Virus record (IMG/VR): IMGVR_UViG_3300032246_000349
Span: 1 to 23,399 of that record
Reading direction: 5' to 3' (one strand)
Origin: a virus
Length of the DNA stretch: 23,399 bases
Part shown: positions 5,954 through 16,859 of the stretch, piece after piece
Position numbering within the stretch: the stretch's first letter is position 1
Layout: each line of letters begins with the position of its first letter
Translations under genes and position numbers: made by a program
The notes under the pieces: generated by a model
What the model saw: the letters and a program-made list of their open reading frames with translations, nothing else
The model's database searches: none
What the model was told of the DNA's origin: nothing

Positions 5954-6186
5954 TTACCATACTCTCTTCCAATAGTTACAGAAATTCTATTTTTAAATCT
6001 TCTATTTAATATATCTTGATGAGTTAATTTAGGCAAAACAATATATCCATTAAGTTCTAAATCTTTTAATCTATATTTAGTTGTTGTGCAACCTTTAAGA
6101 ATATCTTTTATACAACAATTTGGATTGTTATTCATAAAAGAAATAACTTCTTTTGCTTTTTTTTGGTCATCTAATTTTGTATACAT
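5938..6186 (-). CDS. Small helical, possibly winged-helix DNA-binding protein
   Basis: 82 residues, basic. Predicted helices at about 6-18, 26-32 and 36-44 are followed by a strand-rich part (NGYIVLPKL then RISVTIG), which looks like a small winged helix: CIKDILKGCTTTKYRLKDLE would be the turn and recognition helix. It overlaps the upstream FkbM gene by 16 bases. No specific family is recognised; a regulatory role is inference from the fold-like pattern. Confidence 0.55.
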   Translation of the reverse strand: MYTKLDDQKKAKEVISFMNNNPNCCIKDILKGCTTTKYRLKDLELNGYIVLPKLTHQDILNRRFKNRISVTIGREYGKWIGY

Positions 6187-6764
6187 AATTCAGTTCTAAC
6201 ATATTTAAGTATTCCATAATTCCAACCACGCATAGTTGTTTCTATAAGCGTATAATCACATAATAATTCATCTATACGTCTACGGTCATGTGCTGAATGA
6301 AATTCTATCAGAAATACTTTGGGAAAGTGGATTAAATTTTCTATAATTTCTACTTCTGCACCTTCTGTATCTATCTTCATAATATCACATTCTAATAAAT
6401 GACTAGATGACATTACTTTAACTAATTCACCTTTTGTATCTTGTTCTTCACCTTGATATAAACTTGCTTCACCACAATTATGAATACCATAATACATTTG
6501 ACGTTCTTCATCTTTAGCACCAATAGCTATATTTCTAATTGCTATATCAGTTCCTTCAATGTTCTGTCTTAATAATTCATAGTTAGCTTTTATAGGTTCA
6601 TAGCAATCAATTTTAGCATTATTAAAATATTCATGTGCCCATACTGCAAAACCACCTACATTAGCACCAATGTCAATAATATAAGGGTTATCTATTTTAC
6701 CTATAGCATATTCACCTTGAAATATATTTCCAACATGAGCAATCATGTTATTAGGGATAATCAT
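6171..6764 (-). CDS. FkbM family SAM-dependent methyltransferase
   Basis: 197 residues. DIGANVG (31-37) is the SAM-binding glycine loop, YEP (55-57) the acidic ribose-binding strand end, and DIMKIDTEGAE (127-137) plus IEFHS (153-157) are the FkbM hallmarks. FkbM enzymes O-methylate sugars and small molecules. The start overlaps the glycosyltransferase stop as ATGA, so the pair is probably translated together and acts on the same glycan or modified target. No signal peptide is seen, so it is cytoplasmic. The acceptor is unknown. Confidence 0.85.
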   Translation of the reverse strand: MIIPNNMIAHVGNIFQGEYAIGKIDNPYIIDIGANVGGFAVWAHEYFNNAKIDCYEPIKANYELLRQNIEGTDIAIRNIAIGAKDEERQMYYGIHNCGEASLYQGEEQDTKGELVKVMSSSHLLECDIMKIDTEGAEVEIIENLIHFPKVFLIEFHSAHDRRRIDELLCDYTLIETTMRGWNYGILKYVRTELCIQN

Positions 6765-7498
6765 ACAAGTCTACCACTATATTGATAAGTTCCTGTATGA
6801 ACTAATTGTGCCCATGCTGCACCCCATACTTTAATATCGTTATTTTTTGCTAGTTTACAAAAATGATAATCTTCTGACAATAGTTTTTTATCTTCATCAA
6901 TGCTAGTTGCAAAATATTCTACTATTTCATTACCTAAATCAGAATTATCAATAGTATCATTCATATTATGGATATATTTAGGGCACTTGTCTTTTAACTT
7001 ATTAAACACTTCACGTTTGATTACCATAAATCCTGTGCCACCATGTTTAATCTCAAAAGGTTTATTCAATGGCACTAATTGTTCTTTAGCATCACCAATC
7101 ATATTAACTACATATTCACCTGTAAAGTATTTAAGTTGATGTTCTGGAACTTTCTTTTCTATAGCATAAGCTACACCACCCCAATTAATCTCTTTTTTAG
7201 GATATAAACCACATATAATCTCTACATCTGCTTCAATCATTTTAAATAAATGTGATGGTTGAAACTGAATGTCAGCATCAATAAATACCATGTGAGTGCA
7301 ATCAGATTTTAAAAAGTCATTAACTAATGTATTGCGACCACGAGTAATAAGACTTTCGTTATAAAGAAATGAAAAGTAAGCGTCATAGTCTTTAGCTATT
7401 AGATTGGCTTGTAGACTTAACATTGACTCCATATAAGTACCATAACAAAGACCACCATACATAGGTGTTGCAATAAATAAATTAGGTTTAGTGTCCAT
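6761..7498 (-). CDS. GT-A fold glycosyltransferase
   Basis: 245 residues. It opens with FIATPMYGG, has SLITRGRNTLVNDFL, then the metal/nucleotide-binding DxD motif as VFIDADIQF (D74, D76), followed by CGLYPKK, HGGTGFMVIKREVF and SEDYHFC. This is the arrangement of phage and bacterial GT-A glycosyltransferases that use nucleotide sugars. It overlaps the upstream small gene by 11 bases and the FkbM gene by 4 bases. Likely jobs are decorating host surface glycan, virion proteins or modified DNA; the sequence does not decide between them. Confidence 0.8.
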   Translation of the reverse strand: MDTKPNLFIATPMYGGLCYGTYMESMLSLQANLIAKDYDAYFSFLYNESLITRGRNTLVNDFLKSDCTHMVFIDADIQFQPSHLFKMIEADVEIICGLYPKKEINWGGVAYAIEKKVPEHQLKYFTGEYVVNMIGDAKEQLVPLNKPFEIKHGGTGFMVIKREVFNKLKDKCPKYIHNMNDTIDNSDLGNEIVEYFATSIDEDKKLLSEDYHFCKLAKNNDIKVWGAAWAQLVHTGTYQYSGRLV

Positions 7499-7718
7499 TA
7501 TTAGCTTCCGTTAGTTTTTTAGAATCGTATTTTTTAGTATTAGTTACTTTAATTATATTTTTTGTGTCAGATATAAGTGGAGTTATAGTAACATTATGTA
7601 ATTTTGATTTAAGGTCTTTAAACCAAGATAGCTCTGTAGGTTGAGATGTCATGAGCCCAGACCATACAAGTTTACCTGTGCTATCAAATTCTTCTACAAG
7701 CCATGCTAAAGGTTTCAT
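7488..7718 (-). CDS. Hypothetical small phage protein
   Basis: 76 residues starting PLAWLVEEFDSTGKLVWSG, with the start on a TGATG overlap with the SleB-like gene stop. The N-terminal half looks like a beta-hairpin rich in aromatics and is often seen in small accessory phage proteins. The C-terminus is lysine-rich and polar. No motif allows a function. It is transcribed in the leftward operon between the hydrolase and the glycosyltransferase. Confidence 0.55.
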   Translation of the reverse strand: MKPLAWLVEEFDSTGKLVWSGLMTSQPTELSWFKDLKSKLHNVTITPLISDTKNIIKVTNTKKYDSKKLTEANNGH

Positions 7719-8098
7719 CAGTAGAATACCATTCTTCCTATTTTAACCATTTTCTTTTTACCAAACCAATGATTTTTTTCTTGCATACTGTCATCATGGA
7801 AGTATAAAGCATTACCAACTGGGTTTGCATATTTATGAAACACAACTGCATCAAGTACCAATAGTTTAGTTTGAAGATACATTTTTTCATTAACTGGATA
7901 GTGGCTTTCTTCTCTAACAGCAAACTGACCATCAGCGTAAACGACAGAGCATACAGAATAACCCCAGCGACCAGAGTTAAGACGATTGCGAATAACATTA
8001 ATAACTCCTAACTTTTCTTCTAATGAACGAGTATTGACTTCGTGGTATACAGCCGTTGCATAACACGCCACATCAAGTTCTAAATTGTGAATATCCAT
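7718..8098 (-). CDS. SleB-type cell wall hydrolase (Hydrolase_2 family)
   Basis: 126 residues. CYATAVYHEVNTRSLEEKLG (12-31) holds the catalytic Glu20, followed by VINVIRNRL, CSVVYADGQF and VGNALYFH, all hallmarks of the SleB/Hydrolase_2 lytic transglycosylase or muramidase fold that cleaves the glycan strand. It is a short, single-domain form with no signal peptide. It is unusual to find it in the early-type leftward operon, far from the holin. It could be the true endolysin or serve an envelope role. The ribosome binding site (AGGAC, about 10 bases upstream) is weak. The gene follows the region where pqqA lies on the other strand. Confidence 0.75.
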   Translation of the reverse strand: MDIHNLELDVACYATAVYHEVNTRSLEEKLGVINVIRNRLNSGRWGYSVCSVVYADGQFAVREESHYPVNEKMYLQTKLLVLDAVVFHKYANPVGNALYFHDDSMQEKNHWFGKKKMVKIGRMVFY

Positions 8099-8141: not shown

Positions 8142-8153
8142 CACACATAAGCG

Positions 8154-8159
8154 TATAAT
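8154..8159 (+). promoter_or_regulatory. -10 box of a probable pqqA promoter
   Basis: A perfect TATAAT lies 33 bases before the pqqA ATG. The hexamer 17 bases upstream (TCGTAG, 8131-8136) is weak, so transcription may need an activator, perhaps acting at the palindrome that overlaps this hexamer. The start of the RNA would be near 8166, giving a leader of about 27 bases that includes the strong ribosome binding site. Confidence 0.45.
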
Positions 8160-8192
8160 GCTAACATAAATCTAAAGAAAGGAGTATAGACC

Positions 8193-8264
8193 ATGTGGAC
8201 AAAACCTACAGCTAGTGAAATGCGTTTTGGATTTGAAGTAACCATGTATGTAATGAATAAATAA
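8193..8264 (+). CDS. pqqA: PqqA-like PQQ precursor peptide
   Basis: A 23-residue ORF with an AAAGGAG ribosome binding site eight bases upstream, on the strand opposite to all its neighbours. It has every landmark of PqqA, the ribosomal peptide from which pyrroloquinoline quinone is built: W2, K4-P5, R11, G13 and the core RFGFEVTMY. Glu15 and Tyr19, the two residues that PqqE crosslinks, fall at the same numbers as in the 23-residue Klebsiella PqqA. The peptide would be presented by host PqqD, processed by PqqE, PqqB/F and PqqC, and used up one per cofactor molecule. No other pqq gene is present here. It has its own -10 box and a 3' hairpin. The main doubt is the short length, offset by the near-complete motif match. 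Confidence 0.85.
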   Translation: MWTKPTASEMRFGFEVTMYVMNK

Positions 8265-8278
8265 TGTTTACTGTGTAA

Positions 8279-8311
8279 ATGGGGGTGTTCCTTAAAAAGG
8301 AACATCTCCAT
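8279..8311 (+). terminator. 15-bp hairpin at the 3' end of the pqqA unit
   Basis: ATGGGGGTGTTCCTT (8279-8293) pairs with AAGGAACATCTCCAT (8297-8311) around a three-base loop. Two pairs are G-U in the + strand RNA (8285/8305 and 8283/8307) and would be A-C mismatches in the - strand RNA, so the structure belongs to the + transcript, that is the pqqA mRNA. No T-run follows, so it may stabilise the mRNA end or act with Rho rather than as a simple intrinsic terminator. Its right arm lies in the last codons of the opposing SSB-like gene. Confidence 0.6.
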
Positions 8312-8534
8312 CTACATCTTCAGTAGCACTTTTAGTTGCACCAGCAGAGTTATTATCTTTTAGCTGAATAGAACCACTAATAAACTTACCATTAGCACCT
8401 TCTCTAACCCAACCTGATAAAGTAAATTCAATACCGTCCACGTTGAGTTTTCCACGATAGTCTGGTCGTTTAGGATTATCACCTTTATCATTCTTGTTTA
8501 ACGTAAACGTGTTTGTGTTGTCATATTGCGCCAT
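8292..8534 (-). CDS. Small single-stranded DNA-binding-like protein
   Basis: 80 residues. The body alternates strands (NTFTLNKNDKG, YRGKLNVDGIEFTLSGWV, GKFISGSIQL) as in a small OB-like barrel or DUF736-type fold. The end is a low-complexity Ser/Ala/Thr linker followed by DVDGDVPF, very like the acidic D-x-D-x-PF tail by which SSB proteins recruit partners. It follows the YqaJ exonuclease with AAAGGAG before its ATG. The set of annealing protein, exonuclease and SSB-like protein makes a complete recombination cassette. The fold is inferred; the tail is clear. Confidence 0.7.
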   Translation of the reverse strand: MAQYDNTNTFTLNKNDKGDNPKRPDYRGKLNVDGIEFTLSGWVREGANGKFISGSIQLKDNNSAGATKSATEDVDGDVPF

Positions 8535-8537
8535 ATA

Positions 8538-9161
8538 CTACTCCTTTAGTTTAATAATTGTTTGTTCTACTTCATTCAAAAACTTCTCTACCTCAATCTC
8601 TAATTCTGATATATAAGTCTGGTCTCTGTCTACTCTTGATATAAATAACTGAAGTTCTGAAGGGAAATTTGGGTTATAGCTCACAAAATCTACCCAACTA
8701 GCACCTACACAAGCCATTTGCCATTGTATTTGAGGAATATATTTACTAGGAACAGACTTACTCATCAAGGTGTTTGTATGCGTAGTTTCAATGGGACACT
8801 TAATTTCAATGAGCCCAGCATACTTACCTTCAATTTCTGCATGAACTGCACCATCTGGACTAGCACCACTATTCTTAATTACAGGATGGTCAAAGAATCC
8901 TACTTCCGTTACAGAAACATCATTCTTTAACTCATAAAGCGTTCTAGCAGCACTTTCTCTTTCAATACCATCTAACATGGCTTGGTTGACAAAACTATCT
9001 CCTTTCTTACCTGTTAAGCGTTCTGATACTAATTGGATAAGATAATTTTGGCGAGATGTAGACACACCTGTTTTGGTCTTGGCGATTACATCCGATATTC
9101 TGGATGCAGTCACCTTACCAAGTCTTTGTTGAAACCACTCATCTGTGCGTTGTTCTATCAT
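8538..9161 (-). CDS. YqaJ-like viral recombinase / lambda-exonuclease family
   Basis: 207 residues. EQRTDEWFQQRLGKVTAS (3-20) is the family's N-terminal motif. GASPDG carries catalytic D103, LIEIKCP gives E119-x-K121, and YIPQIQWQM (141-149) is the glutamine-containing helix, all typical of the PD-(D/E)XK exonucleases that resect double-stranded DNA 5' to 3'. Length and motif order are those of a whole enzyme. The start overlaps the annealing-protein stop as ATGA. It would generate 3' single strands for the DUF1071 partner during phage recombination or concatemer formation. Confidence 0.88.
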   Translation of the reverse strand: MIEQRTDEWFQQRLGKVTASRISDVIAKTKTGVSTSRQNYLIQLVSERLTGKKGDSFVNQAMLDGIERESAARTLYELKNDVSVTEVGFFDHPVIKNSGASPDGAVHAEIEGKYAGLIEIKCPIETTHTNTLMSKSVPSKYIPQIQWQMACVGASWVDFVSYNPNFPSELQLFISRVDRDQTYISELEIEVEKFLNEVEQTIIKLKE

Positions 9162-9559
9162 AGAAAGTCCTTGCTAGATACAGCTTTTAATGTTGGTTGT
9201 TCTGAATCTGGAATATCCTCACCACTATAAATGTAAAGACCAATGCCATGCAATGCAATAGCTTTTGCTAAACATCTTTGCATAGCAGTATTAACTGCCA
9301 TAGCATCAGGATTAGGAATAGCTTGATTTCTAAAGTTAAGCACAGGTAATTGTGATGTCATTGACTTACCAAACGCATAGACTGTGCAAAATACCATAAG
9401 TGTTTCACCAAATTGTTTAGGTTCACCATAGTGCCATGTAGCAGTTGGGTCTTGCTGCAGAAGTGTATCTACAGCCCAAGCCCATGATAAGTATGATAGA
9501 CCATTCTTTTTCTCAATGTGGTCAGATACATTGATTTTGCGTAGTTCGTTATAGTTCAT
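9158..9559 (-). CDS. DUF1071 single-strand annealing protein
   Basis: 133 residues from ATG 9559, which has AGGAGAG four bases upstream. The N-terminal NGLSYLSWAWAVD and the later TVYAFGKS, LNFRNQAIPNPDAMAVNTAMQRCLAKAIALHGIG are the DUF1071 hallmarks, a family grouped with Sak/Rad52-like annealing proteins. It would anneal the strands exposed by the neighbouring YqaJ exonuclease. The same frame stays open upstream to ATG 9634, which also has an AGGAGAG site, and to ATG 9658. A longer form with a glutamine-rich head (SQQQHYDQVMMQQHQQEL) is therefore possible, though that stretch overlaps another gene in a different frame. Confidence 0.8.
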   Translation of the reverse strand: MNYNELRKINVSDHIEKKNGLSYLSWAWAVDTLLQQDPTATWHYGEPKQFGETLMVFCTVYAFGKSMTSQLPVLNFRNQAIPNPDAMAVNTAMQRCLAKAIALHGIGLYIYSGEDIPDSEQPTLKAVSSKDFL

Positions 9560-9734
9560 CTTTCTCTCCTGTTGTTGTAATTCTTGTTGATGTTGTTGCA
9601 TCATTACTTGGTCGTAGTGTTGTTGCTGACTCATTCTTTTTTCTCTCCTGTTCATCATATTTATCGTTAAGTTCTTTTAAATCTTTATACACTTCTTGTA
9701 ATATTGAAGATATATGTTTTAAATCATTCGCCAT
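9549..9734 (-). CDS. Small coiled-coil protein ahead of the annealing protein
   Basis: 61 residues from ATG 9734, with GGGG about 10 bases upstream. The first half is a charged helix (HISSILQEVYKDLKELNDKYDEQ), and the second half is a Thr/Ser-rich low-complexity tail ending TTTGEKDEL. The frame is also open to ATG 9776, but that would absorb the micro-ORF region. It ends inside the first codons of the DUF1071 gene, so translation is probably coupled. No family is recognised. Confidence 0.5.
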   Translation of the reverse strand: MANDLKHISSILQEVYKDLKELNDKYDEQERKKNESATTLRPSNDATTSTRITTTGEKDEL

Positions 9735-12403: not shown

Positions 12404-13558
12404 ATGAATGATTTATTTGCAATAGAAGAAAAAACAACAGTAATTACTAAAAAAACAAAGTTTGACAAAACAGAACGTAATAATTATATATGCAAAATGT
12501 ATGATATTAGTTTTGATGAAATTGTTGATGAGTTTATGGTTAACTTTGAAACAGACTTTGATTGGAATATTGGATTAATTGTAGGTCAAAGTGGAACAGG
12601 TAAAACAACAATAGCAAAAGAAAAGTTTAAAGATTTTTATTTGTTTAAAGAACATAAATGGGACGAAACAAAATCAATCGTAGATAATTTTGATGTAAGT
12701 TTACCAAGTGATAAAATTATTGAGTCACTTACAAAAGTAGGTTTTTCAAGTCCATTAAATTGGTTAAAACCATATCATTTATTATCTAATGGTCAAAAAA
12801 TGCGTGTAGATTTAGCACGATTACTATTAGAAAAAAATGAAACAGTTATATTTGATGAATTTACTAGCGTTGTAGATAGAGATGTAGCTAAAGTCACTTC
12901 ATTAGCTGTTAGTAACTTTATTAGAAAAAATAACTATAAGTTTATCGCAGTATCATGTCATAGTGATATAATTGAATGGTTACAACCAGATTGGATATTT
13001 GATACTAATGCTAAAAGTTTTAATAGGGGGTTACTTTGGCAAAGACCAAAACTTACATTCCAATTACGAACAGCATCAGTTGATGAATGGAAATCATTTG
13101 CTAACTATCACTATTTAACACATGAAATATTAAGAGGTAGTCATTGTTACGCTTTAGACTATAAAGGATTTCCTATAGCATTTGCAGCTGTAACTCATTT
13201 TCCACACCCTAAATGTTGTAACTTTAAAAAGATACACAGAATGGTTGTGCTACCAGACTTTCAAGGTATAGGTATTGGTAAACAATTTCTAAATGCTGTA
13301 TCTGAAATATACTATAAACAAAACTTTAGAGTATTGCTTACTACAGGTGCTTTAAGTTTTATTAATAGTTTAGATAAAGAAAAAGATTGGAAGATGACAA
13401 GAAAATTAAGTAAAGTAGGAGAAAGTAAAGGTATTCTTAAAGGTTCAACATCTAAAAATAGAGAAACAGCTAGTTTTGAATACAAAGATTGTCCTACAAG
13501 AACTATGAATCAACCTGTAGTAGAGATAAATAATATTCCTAATCATGATTTATTTTAA
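12404..13558 (+). CDS. ABC-type ATPase fused to a GNAT acyltransferase domain
   Basis: 384 residues, with TAGGAGAGAGTT before the ATG. Residues about 50-200 form one ABC nucleotide-binding domain: Walker A GQSGTGKT (61-68), signature LSNGQ (127-131), Walker B TVIFDE (147-152) and switch His186. Residues about 218-340 form a GNAT fold: the A motif is HRMVVLPDFQGIGIGKQ (278-294), where QGIGIG binds the CoA pyrophosphate. There are no membrane helices and no partner permease, so this is not a transporter. The next gene is a cytosine-C5 methyltransferase and a second DNA methyltransferase lies 2.5 kb on, so nucleic-acid modification (compare Mu Mom, also GNAT-fold) is one hypothesis. The acyl donor and target are unknown. 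Confidence 0.75.
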   Translation: MNDLFAIEEKTTVITKKTKFDKTERNNYICKMYDISFDEIVDEFMVNFETDFDWNIGLIVGQSGTGKTTIAKEKFKDFYLFKEHKWDETKSIVDNFDVSLPSDKIIESLTKVGFSSPLNWLKPYHLLSNGQKMRVDLARLLLEKNETVIFDEFTSVVDRDVAKVTSLAVSNFIRKNNYKFIAVSCHSDIIEWLQPDWIFDTNAKSFNRGLLWQRPKLTFQLRTASVDEWKSFANYHYLTHEILRGSHCYALDYKGFPIAFAAVTHFPHPKCCNFKKIHRMVVLPDFQGIGIGKQFLNAVSEIYYKQNFRVLLTTGALSFINSLDKEKDWKMTRKLSKVGESKGILKGSTSKNRETASFEYKDCPTRTMNQPVVEINNIPNHDLF

Positions 13559-13569
13559 GAAAATATAAT

Positions 13570-14406
13570 ATGAATGTATTATCATTATTTGACGGAATGT
13601 CATGTGGACAAATAGCATTAAAGCAATTAGGATTTAAAGTAGATAATTATTTTGCATCTGAAATAGATGAAAAAGCAATAAAAGTTGCTAAACATAATTT
13701 TCCAAATACAATACATATTGGTGATGTTACACAAATAAAAGGCAATGAATTACCAAAAATAGATTTACTTATTGGTGGTAGTCCATGTCAAGGTTTTAGT
13801 TTTGCTGGTAAAAAATTAAATTTTGATGATAAAAGAAGTGCATTATTTTTTGAGTTTGTTAGATTACTTAAAGAAACTAATCCAAAATATTTTTTACTTG
13901 AGAATGTAAAGATGTCTAAACAATGTCAAGATGTTATTAGTGAATATTTAGGAGTAAAACCAATAGAAATAAATTCATCTTTATTATCAGCTCAAAATAG
14001 ATTAAGATTATATTGGACTAATATACCAAATATTGAACAACCAAAAGATAAAAATATTTCATTTAAAGATATATTAAATCCAATATATGAATTTAAGCCA
14101 TTAACTAAATGGTTTTTTTCTACATGGGGAACAAAACAAAAAATTAATACATTAAGAACAATAGATGCAAATAAATCTTTTTGTATAACAACTAATAAAA
14201 GTCATTCAAAAAACTATTATTTAAATTCAGAAAAAACAATGGCAAGAATGTTAGAAAGAGATGAAGTTGAAAGATTACAAACTTTACCTGAAGGATATAC
14301 AAATATAGTTTCAAAAACTGAAGCTCATAAAATGATTGGAAATGGTTGGACTGTAGAAGTTATTAAACATATTTTTAGGAACATGAATGAATTATCGCAA
14401 TCCTAA
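13570..14406 (+). CDS. DNA (cytosine-5) methyltransferase
   Basis: 278 residues. Motif I LSLFDGMSCG binds SAM. Motif IV GGSPCQGFS carries the catalytic Cys73. Motif VI is ENV (111-113), motif VIII is QNRLR (142-146), and motifs IX-X are ERLQTLPEGY and MIGNGWTV at the end. The target-recognition part between VIII and IX is short. No restriction endonuclease is adjacent, so it is an orphan, probably protecting phage DNA from host restriction or marking it. It follows the ATPase/GNAT gene by 11 bases and overlaps the YbcO-like gene by 20 bases. Confidence 0.9.
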   Translation: MNVLSLFDGMSCGQIALKQLGFKVDNYFASEIDEKAIKVAKHNFPNTIHIGDVTQIKGNELPKIDLLIGGSPCQGFSFAGKKLNFDDKRSALFFEFVRLLKETNPKYFLLENVKMSKQCQDVISEYLGVKPIEINSSLLSAQNRLRLYWTNIPNIEQPKDKNISFKDILNPIYEFKPLTKWFFSTWGTKQKINTLRTIDANKSFCITTNKSHSKNYYLNSEKTMARMLERDEVERLQTLPEGYTNIVSKTEAHKMIGNGWTVEVIKHIFRNMNELSQS

Positions 14407-15764: not shown

Positions 15765-16090
15765 TAACTATGGAACGTTTACTATCAATCCTAGATGATT
15801 GGAAAGTATACATGAAGTCTACTAATACTAGACTTGGTTATCCATCTAAAAGTCTTGGTATGTCATCTGGTGGTGAATCTACAAAAGATGAGTTTGAGCA
15901 CATGGTAAATGCTATGGATAAATCTAACGTCAGAACCATAGATGCAATTATACATAGTCTTGATAAAGGACAGCAACAAGCCATATATGCCAAATATCTA
16001 GGTACTAAACCTCCATTAGCTTACTCATGGCAATTAGACATGGCAATTGATAATCTATTAATTATTAGCTCTAGGAGAATTAATGCTTAA
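15761..16090 (+). CDS. Possible Q-like late-gene regulator
   Basis: 109 residues, in a pattern I associate with small phage antitermination or late-regulator proteins: ERLLSILDDWKVYMKS, then LGYPSKSLGMSSGG, a long helix, and DKGQQQAIYAKYLG with a terminal RRINA. The last part reads like a sigma-type or HTH DNA-binding region. It precedes the late promoter/terminator element at 16864-16977, separated only by the methyltransferase gene, as lambdoid Q genes lie just before pR'. Family membership is not certain; the function is inferred mainly from position. Confidence 0.4.
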   Translation: MITMERLLSILDDWKVYMKSTNTRLGYPSKSLGMSSGGESTKDEFEHMVNAMDKSNVRTIDAIIHSLDKGQQQAIYAKYLGTKPPLAYSWQLDMAIDNLLIISSRRINA

Positions 16091-16859
16091 ATTATTACAA
16101 GGTGATTGTTTAGAGTTAATGAAAGATTTAGATAATGATAGTATAGATTTAACTGTTACTAGCCCTCCTTATGATAATTTAAGAACATATAATGGATTTA
16201 CATTTGATTTTGAAAGAATAGCAAAAGAATTATTTAGGATTACAAAACAAGGTGGAGTTTTAGTTTGGGTAGTAGGTGATGCTACAATTAATGGAAGTGA
16301 AAGTGGAACATCATTTAAACAAGCATTATATTTTAAAGATATTGGATTTAATTTACATGACACAATGATTTATCAAAAGGGTTCTTTCCCTCCAACATTT
16401 CCAAAAACTAAAAGATATCAAAATGCTTTTGAATATATGTTTATATTAAGCAAAGGAACTCCAAAAACATTTAATGGCATACAAAGAGATAAAAGTCCAA
16501 ATTCAATTTATACAAGAAAAAGCAAATCATCATTTAGAAAAGCAGATGGTAGCTTTACATACAATGAACAAATAAATACTAGCAAAACTACAACCATTGA
16601 ATTAAATATATGGAAGATTGATTGTGGTTATATGAAATCCACAAAAGATAAAGAAGCATATAAACATTCAGCTATTTTTCCAGAAAAATTAGCTTATAAT
16701 CATATTATCAGTTGGAGCAATGAAAACGATACAGTTTTTGACCCATTTTTAGGAAGTGGAACAACTGGCAAAATAGCAAAACAATTAAATCGTAATTTTA
16801 TAGGCATGGAAATATCTAAAGAATATTTAGATATAGCAACTGCTAGAATAAACGCATAA
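16083..16859 (+). CDS. DNA methyltransferase, N4-cytosine or N6-adenine type
   Basis: 258 residues. Catalytic motif IV is TSPPY (26-30), typical of beta-class N4-cytosine and some N6-adenine enzymes. Motif I is DPFLGSGTTG (220-229), near the end, which is the beta-class order. LLQGDCLELMKDLDNDSIDL is the usual opening, and GMEISKEYLDIATARI the usual closing. No restriction partner is seen. It overlaps the previous gene by 8 bases. It would methylate phage DNA to avoid host nucleases or for regulation; the target base and site cannot be read from the sequence. Confidence 0.85.
   Translation: MLKLLQGDCLELMKDLDNDSIDLTVTSPPYDNLRTYNGFTFDFERIAKELFRITKQGGVLVWVVGDATINGSESGTSFKQALYFKDIGFNLHDTMIYQKGSFPPTFPKTKRYQNAFEYMFILSKGTPKTFNGIQRDKSPNSIYTRKSKSSFRKADGSFTYNEQINTSKTTTIELNIWKIDCGYMKSTKDKEAYKHSAIFPEKLAYNHIISWSNENDTVFDPFLGSGTTGKIAKQLNRNFIGMEISKEYLDIATARINA

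Follow-up and report, generated by a model that had tools for sequence, protein, structure and literature searches.

The cofactor PQQ is derived from the peptide PqqA, whose Glu and Tyr residues are crosslinked by PqqE together with PqqD, after which a protease, PqqB, and PqqC complete the synthesis (PMC10906245). In the Methylophilaceae, 3 to 12 copies of pqqA are found while the other pqq genes are usually single copy (PMC4109929), as would be expected if the peptide must be supplied in quantity. These hosts also contain solitary pqqA copies, showing that pqqB-E neighbors are usual but not required (PMC9851590). PqqA has been described in viruses as well. A T4-like methylophage population from Lake Baikal, VP_266, was reported in 2020 to encode PqqA along with methanol dehydrogenase (PMC7678222), and a reservoir-sediment study included pqqA among virus-encoded genes (PMC13188868). 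A first-pass annotation of the DNA studied here was unsure whether phage pqqA had been reported; it had. In the open-access literature we searched, there was no report of pqqA with OM43 and phages and no further report of phage or viral-auxiliary pqqA or PQQ. As far as searched, its near-universality in methylophages, its solitary form, its promoter-like element, and a phage variant with the motif GMEITAY are new.

The stretch of DNA analyzed, hereafter the window, is a 23.4-kb IMG/VR virus record representing a podovirus-like phage fragment. Its large terminase shares 71% identity with those of Methylophilales phage Venkman and the Manatee Spring phage genome. On its plus strand, an ORF of 23 codons plus stop, running from the ATG at 8193 to the TAA ending at 8264, encodes MWTKPTASEMRFGFEVTMYVMNK. 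The first-pass annotation had called this ORF PqqA, and that identification held, as both curated family cut-offs were passed: the peptide scores 40.5 bits against Pfam PF08042 (cut-off 21.1) and 38.5 bits against NCBIfam TIGR02107 (cut-off 20). Moreover, a PqqA model built from bacterial sequences only gave the ORF 63.7 bits, compared with 12.2 bits for the best of ∼87,000 peptides from 100 Markov-shuffled windows. These family scores and the shuffle control show that the ORF is a genuine PqqA. It resembles the Methylophilaceae PqqA proteins in length (23 residues) and in harboring W2, K4-P5, R11, G13, Glu15, and Tyr19, the last two being the crosslink residue pair of the E-x-x-x-Y motif. Near-identical peptides are present in Methylophilaceae genomes, and the PqqA of related phages is often letter-for-letter the same as that of the host (e.g., MWTTPAATEMRFGFEVTMYVMNK). 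The phage gene differs from its host counterparts in being phage-borne and solitary and in having its own promoter-like element. No other PqqA was found in the 23.4-kb window. An exact copy of AAGCGTATAAT at 6246 falls within an oppositely oriented coding gene, and we take it to be chance.

The pqqA gene is the sole plus strand ORF between minus strand genes on both sides. To the left, and divergent from it, lies a cell wall hydrolase predicted to function in lysis (7718 to 8098; PF07486, 1e-16; phrog_938 endolysin). To the right are a convergent single-strand DNA-binding protein (SSB) gene (8292 to 8534; phrog_7364, 3e-15), a RecE/YqaJ-type exonuclease (8538 to 9161; phrog_149, 3.5e-45), and a Sak-like annealing protein (9158 to 9658). 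As all four are on the minus strand, the claimed antisense position of pqqA held. The flanking phage SSB, exonuclease, and hydrolase genes, together with the terminase in the same record, place pqqA in phage DNA rather than host DNA. Left of the hydrolase, on the minus strand, positions 6171 to 7498 encode a methyltransferase and a glycosyltransferase-like protein. These genes were found in none of the 34 relatives that share the pqqA module and have at least 3.5 kb of sequence on that side; hence, this region looks like a variable island. Elsewhere, this small phage genome encodes two plus strand DNA methylases of different types, C5-cytosine and N4/N6 (13570 to 14406 and 16083 to 16859). Beside them, a 384-residue plus strand protein (12404 to 13558) consists of an ABC-type ATPase half fused to a GNAT acetyltransferase half, and it could possibly act in the modification of DNA or tRNA.

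The sequence preceding pqqA contains putative signals for its expression. The predicted ribosome binding site, AAAGGAG, was confirmed at 8178 to 8184, 8 bases before the ATG, and a Shine-Dalgarno-like motif is present in all 119 phage pqqA leaders examined. Further upstream is a −10-like element, GCGTATAAT (8151 to 8159, plus strand), which includes TATAAT at 8154 to 8159. Among relatives, all 55 distinct sequences preceding pqqA contain this element, and it occurs 74 times in 498 kb, nearly one per locus, against 6.3 expected. A simple scan revealed no consensus −35/−10 (sigma-70) pair upstream of the window pqqA. Thus, the claim that the gene has its own −10 box held by conservation among relatives and not by the consensus scan; the assignment is likely, with expression itself inferred. 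The element was not found upstream of pqqA in other isolate lineages and is therefore clade-specific. In addition, an intrinsic terminator, a hairpin followed by T residues, closely follows the gene in 9 of 49 relatives, compared with 0.9 in shuffles.

PqqA is encoded in at least 140 IMG/VR contigs. The pattern MRFGFEVTMY alone gave at least 120 matches, and when codons 15 and 19 were left free in the pattern, Glu and Tyr were present in all of the 120 matches examined. Proteins are shared with known methylophages at 118 of the 123 environmental pqqA loci. Relatives were also chosen solely by the neighboring exonuclease, a bait that is independent of pqqA. In this sample every one of the 64 contigs that extended far enough encodes PqqA, in each case on the strand opposite the exonuclease gene. 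Among the distinct alleles, Glu15 was kept in 50 of 50 and Tyr19 in 49 of 50, consistent with what the first-pass annotation had expected of related phages; the sole allele without Tyr19 (L264) has a lost or rearranged 3′ end. Because the neighboring genes in the window's clade are almost as conserved (hydrolase in 63 of 64 contigs, SSB in 57 of 64), the presence of pqqA in 64 of 64 is by itself weak evidence. The argument draws its weight instead from selection and from the reappearance of the gene in separate lineages. Over the 49 intact alleles of the bait sample, the differences are mostly synonymous and dN/dS is 0.11, showing that pqqA is a real gene under purifying selection at the protein level, with the caveat that the alleles used are kin to one another.

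A second phage form of PqqA, in which GMEITAY replaces GFEVTMY, was found in 22 phage contigs and still scores as PqqA. The carriers are L282, L309, and L323, which are close relatives of the window phage, and further contigs among L373 to L399. Its occurrence in such close relatives indicates that the flanking residues can vary while the Glu and Tyr stay. The form differs from the host GFEVTMY and was absent from all 187 Methylophilaceae genomes searched. A wider search of 369 genomes of the class gave three matches, which proved to be unrelated proteins. The Pseudomonas-type RIGFEVTMY was seen in only two viral contigs, both encoding the same otherwise Methylophilaceae-like peptide.

A search of 50,697 phage records with the window peptide revealed PqqA in all nine methylophage isolate records identified: Venkman, P19250A, MEP301, MEP401, MEP402, and four of Melnitz. 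These nine records correspond to six phages in at least five unrelated lineages, and the Manatee Spring phage genome also encodes PqqA. The terminases of the PqqA-bearing methylophage lineages are mutually unrelated. Their nearest relatives on SAR11, cyanobacteria, and Vibrio (HTVC010P-type, the Mosig/HTVC008M pelagiphages, Hodr, and ICP2) gave no PqqA match. Thus, the gene tracks host lifestyle and not phage ancestry. Outside the methylophages and the Manatee Spring genome only two records matched, both named Acinetobacter phage. One of these, CAKLQF020000010 (Acinetobacter phage MD-2021a), was rejected as a case of PqqA in a phage of another host, as the stretch examined belongs to a bacterial contig that encodes polyphosphate kinase and has the complete pqqABCDE operon. 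MW202697, a MEP401-like metagenomic phage of unknown host, does not contain pqqA. The isolates share the PqqA ORF with the window mostly without annotation, in line with the first-pass expectation that gene callers would miss it, and their open-access descriptions say nothing about a phage pqq gene. In GenBank records MT375522, KX815270, MW452941, OP830906, OP830907, MW202481, and MZ577095 to MZ577098, the gene either lacks an annotation or has a hypothetical ORF overlapping it.

The remainder of the PQQ pathway resides in the hosts. We detected pqqA in 149 of 150 Methylophilaceae genomes, at 1 to 12 copies, and PqqE over cut-off in 57 of 60. No PqqE over cut-off was present in 50 phage records, of which one encodes a PQQ-dependent alcohol dehydrogenase; it therefore appears that the phages mostly bring the consumed peptide alone. 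That one record, L044 (IMG/VR, 72,356 bases, G015), has PqqA together with the dehydrogenase, the latter over its cut-off, like the Lake Baikal populations. The claim that no other pqq gene is present held, and none was found alongside phage pqqA: pqqB, C, D, and E were sought near pqqA in 123 phage loci, 120 pattern matches and three further, and were not found at any. This result, along with the presence of the gene in isolated phages with complete genomes, rules out host DNA contamination.

We consider it likely, with a probability of roughly 0.74, that the phage provides just the consumed substrate peptide and that host enzymes use it to make PQQ for methanol dehydrogenase. The identity of the gene, its conservation and purifying selection, the promoter-like element, the restriction to phages of methylotrophs, and the absence of other pqq genes are shown. 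In the proposed mechanism, the ORF would encode an authentic, substrate-competent PqqA, which the phage would transcribe using a promoter of its own, antisense to the recombination genes. Host PqqD would bind the phage peptide, host PqqE would crosslink Glu15 and Tyr19, and host PqqF/G, PqqB, and PqqC would complete PQQ. As each PQQ made uses up one PqqA and infection may deprive the host of its own pqqA messages, the phage would in this way top up the spent part, and the PQQ-dependent methanol dehydrogenase (XoxF/Mxa) would stay supplied, maintaining energy and carbon flow during phage replication. Expression, processing to PQQ by host enzymes, an increase in PQQ, altered host metabolism, and a benefit to the phage are all inferred, as there are no transcript, peptide, or PQQ data. 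Counting against this reading, it is an assumption that PqqA limits PQQ in these hosts, which already hold several pqqA copies. Also on this side of the balance are the single PQQ-dependent alcohol dehydrogenase among 50 phage records, the lack of pqqA in MW202697, and the L264 allele without its 3′ end. The raised cofactor supply proposed in the first-pass annotation nevertheless remains the best explanation, supported but inferred.

The decoy that had been offered as its alternative is less likely but not excluded. As a decoy or brake, the peptide would occupy PqqD/PqqE or the protease, lower host PQQ, and either stop methanol oxidation or arrest the host. Such a peptide would bind the same partners, a small gene would be enough, and the GMEITAY variant is unlike host peptides. 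However, a dead-end inhibitor need not retain Glu15 and Tyr19, yet both persist even in searches that did not require them, and many phage peptides are identical to those of the host and would therefore be processed alike. We regard this explanation as very unlikely. We likewise give very little credence to the idea that the conserved element works as an RNA, antisense or regulatory, that targets the overlapping transcript for recombination or lysis, with the ORF incidental. In its favor, pqqA lies opposite recombination genes and beside a lysis gene, with a −10-like box and sometimes a terminator. Against it stand the mostly synonymous differences and the low dN/dS, the Shine-Dalgarno-like motif in every leader examined, and the recurrence of the peptide in unrelated lineages with other contexts and orientations.

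The gene might also be a host-derived neutral passenger that is often acquired because hosts have many pqqA copies, a view favored by the up to 12 copies in hosts and by phage peptides that equal host ones. It is countered by the strong purifying selection, by the presence of the gene in all isolates identified, and by the lack of host pqqB-E flanks. In general, small phage genomes seldom keep neutral host genes, and we find this possibility highly improbable. Finally, PQQ might be raised for another purpose, either for a different quinoprotein dehydrogenase or for redox protection of the infected cell. Several dehydrogenases are known to use PQQ. But the gene is confined to phages whose methylotrophic hosts rely on PQQ for their central oxidation step, and the Pseudomonas-type motif was seen in only two viral contigs, both with the otherwise Methylophilaceae-like peptide, leaving this explanation with very little support.

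A bolder form of the substrate-supply reading is that methylotroph phages have convergently come to donate, of all the parts needed for a ribosomally made cofactor, only the substrate peptide that is consumed, and that some have evolved their own form, GMEITAY, which is unlike any host form searched and is possibly a better substrate. Our judgment leans slightly against this version. If true, it would mean that PQQ in infected cells is limited by the supply of PqqA rather than by the enzymes of the pathway. On the substrate-supply reading itself, phages probably keep methanol oxidation fueled in infection, an inference that is likely though indirect, and pqqA is present in nearly all of the viruses known to infect these hosts. 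A 72-base gene that most annotations miss is common to every cultured methylophage identified, across unrelated lineages, and is missing from their nearest relatives on other hosts. It marks PQQ supply as a putative pressure point when the abundant methylotrophs of marine and fresh waters are infected, would link viruses to methanol turnover, and provides a straightforward genetic means of asking whether PQQ synthesis is limited by its precursor peptide. Surveys of metabolic genes in phages should accordingly cover substrate peptides of ∼20 residues.

Comparison with the Lake Baikal VP_139 and VP_266 populations, which are T4-like, shows that in both settings a phage-encoded PqqA is proposed to aid methanol oxidation (PMC7678222). 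There, however, it was reported as a single annotated gene in one large phage population, which has methanol dehydrogenase as well, whereas here small phages carry the peptide alone, and they do so in nearly all methylophage lineages. The psbA gene of cyanophages duplicates, in the phage, a host component that becomes depleted and needs resupply. Phage PqqA would be alike as a resupplied component, but in this case the component is a 23-residue modified-peptide substrate rather than an enzyme or reaction-center protein.
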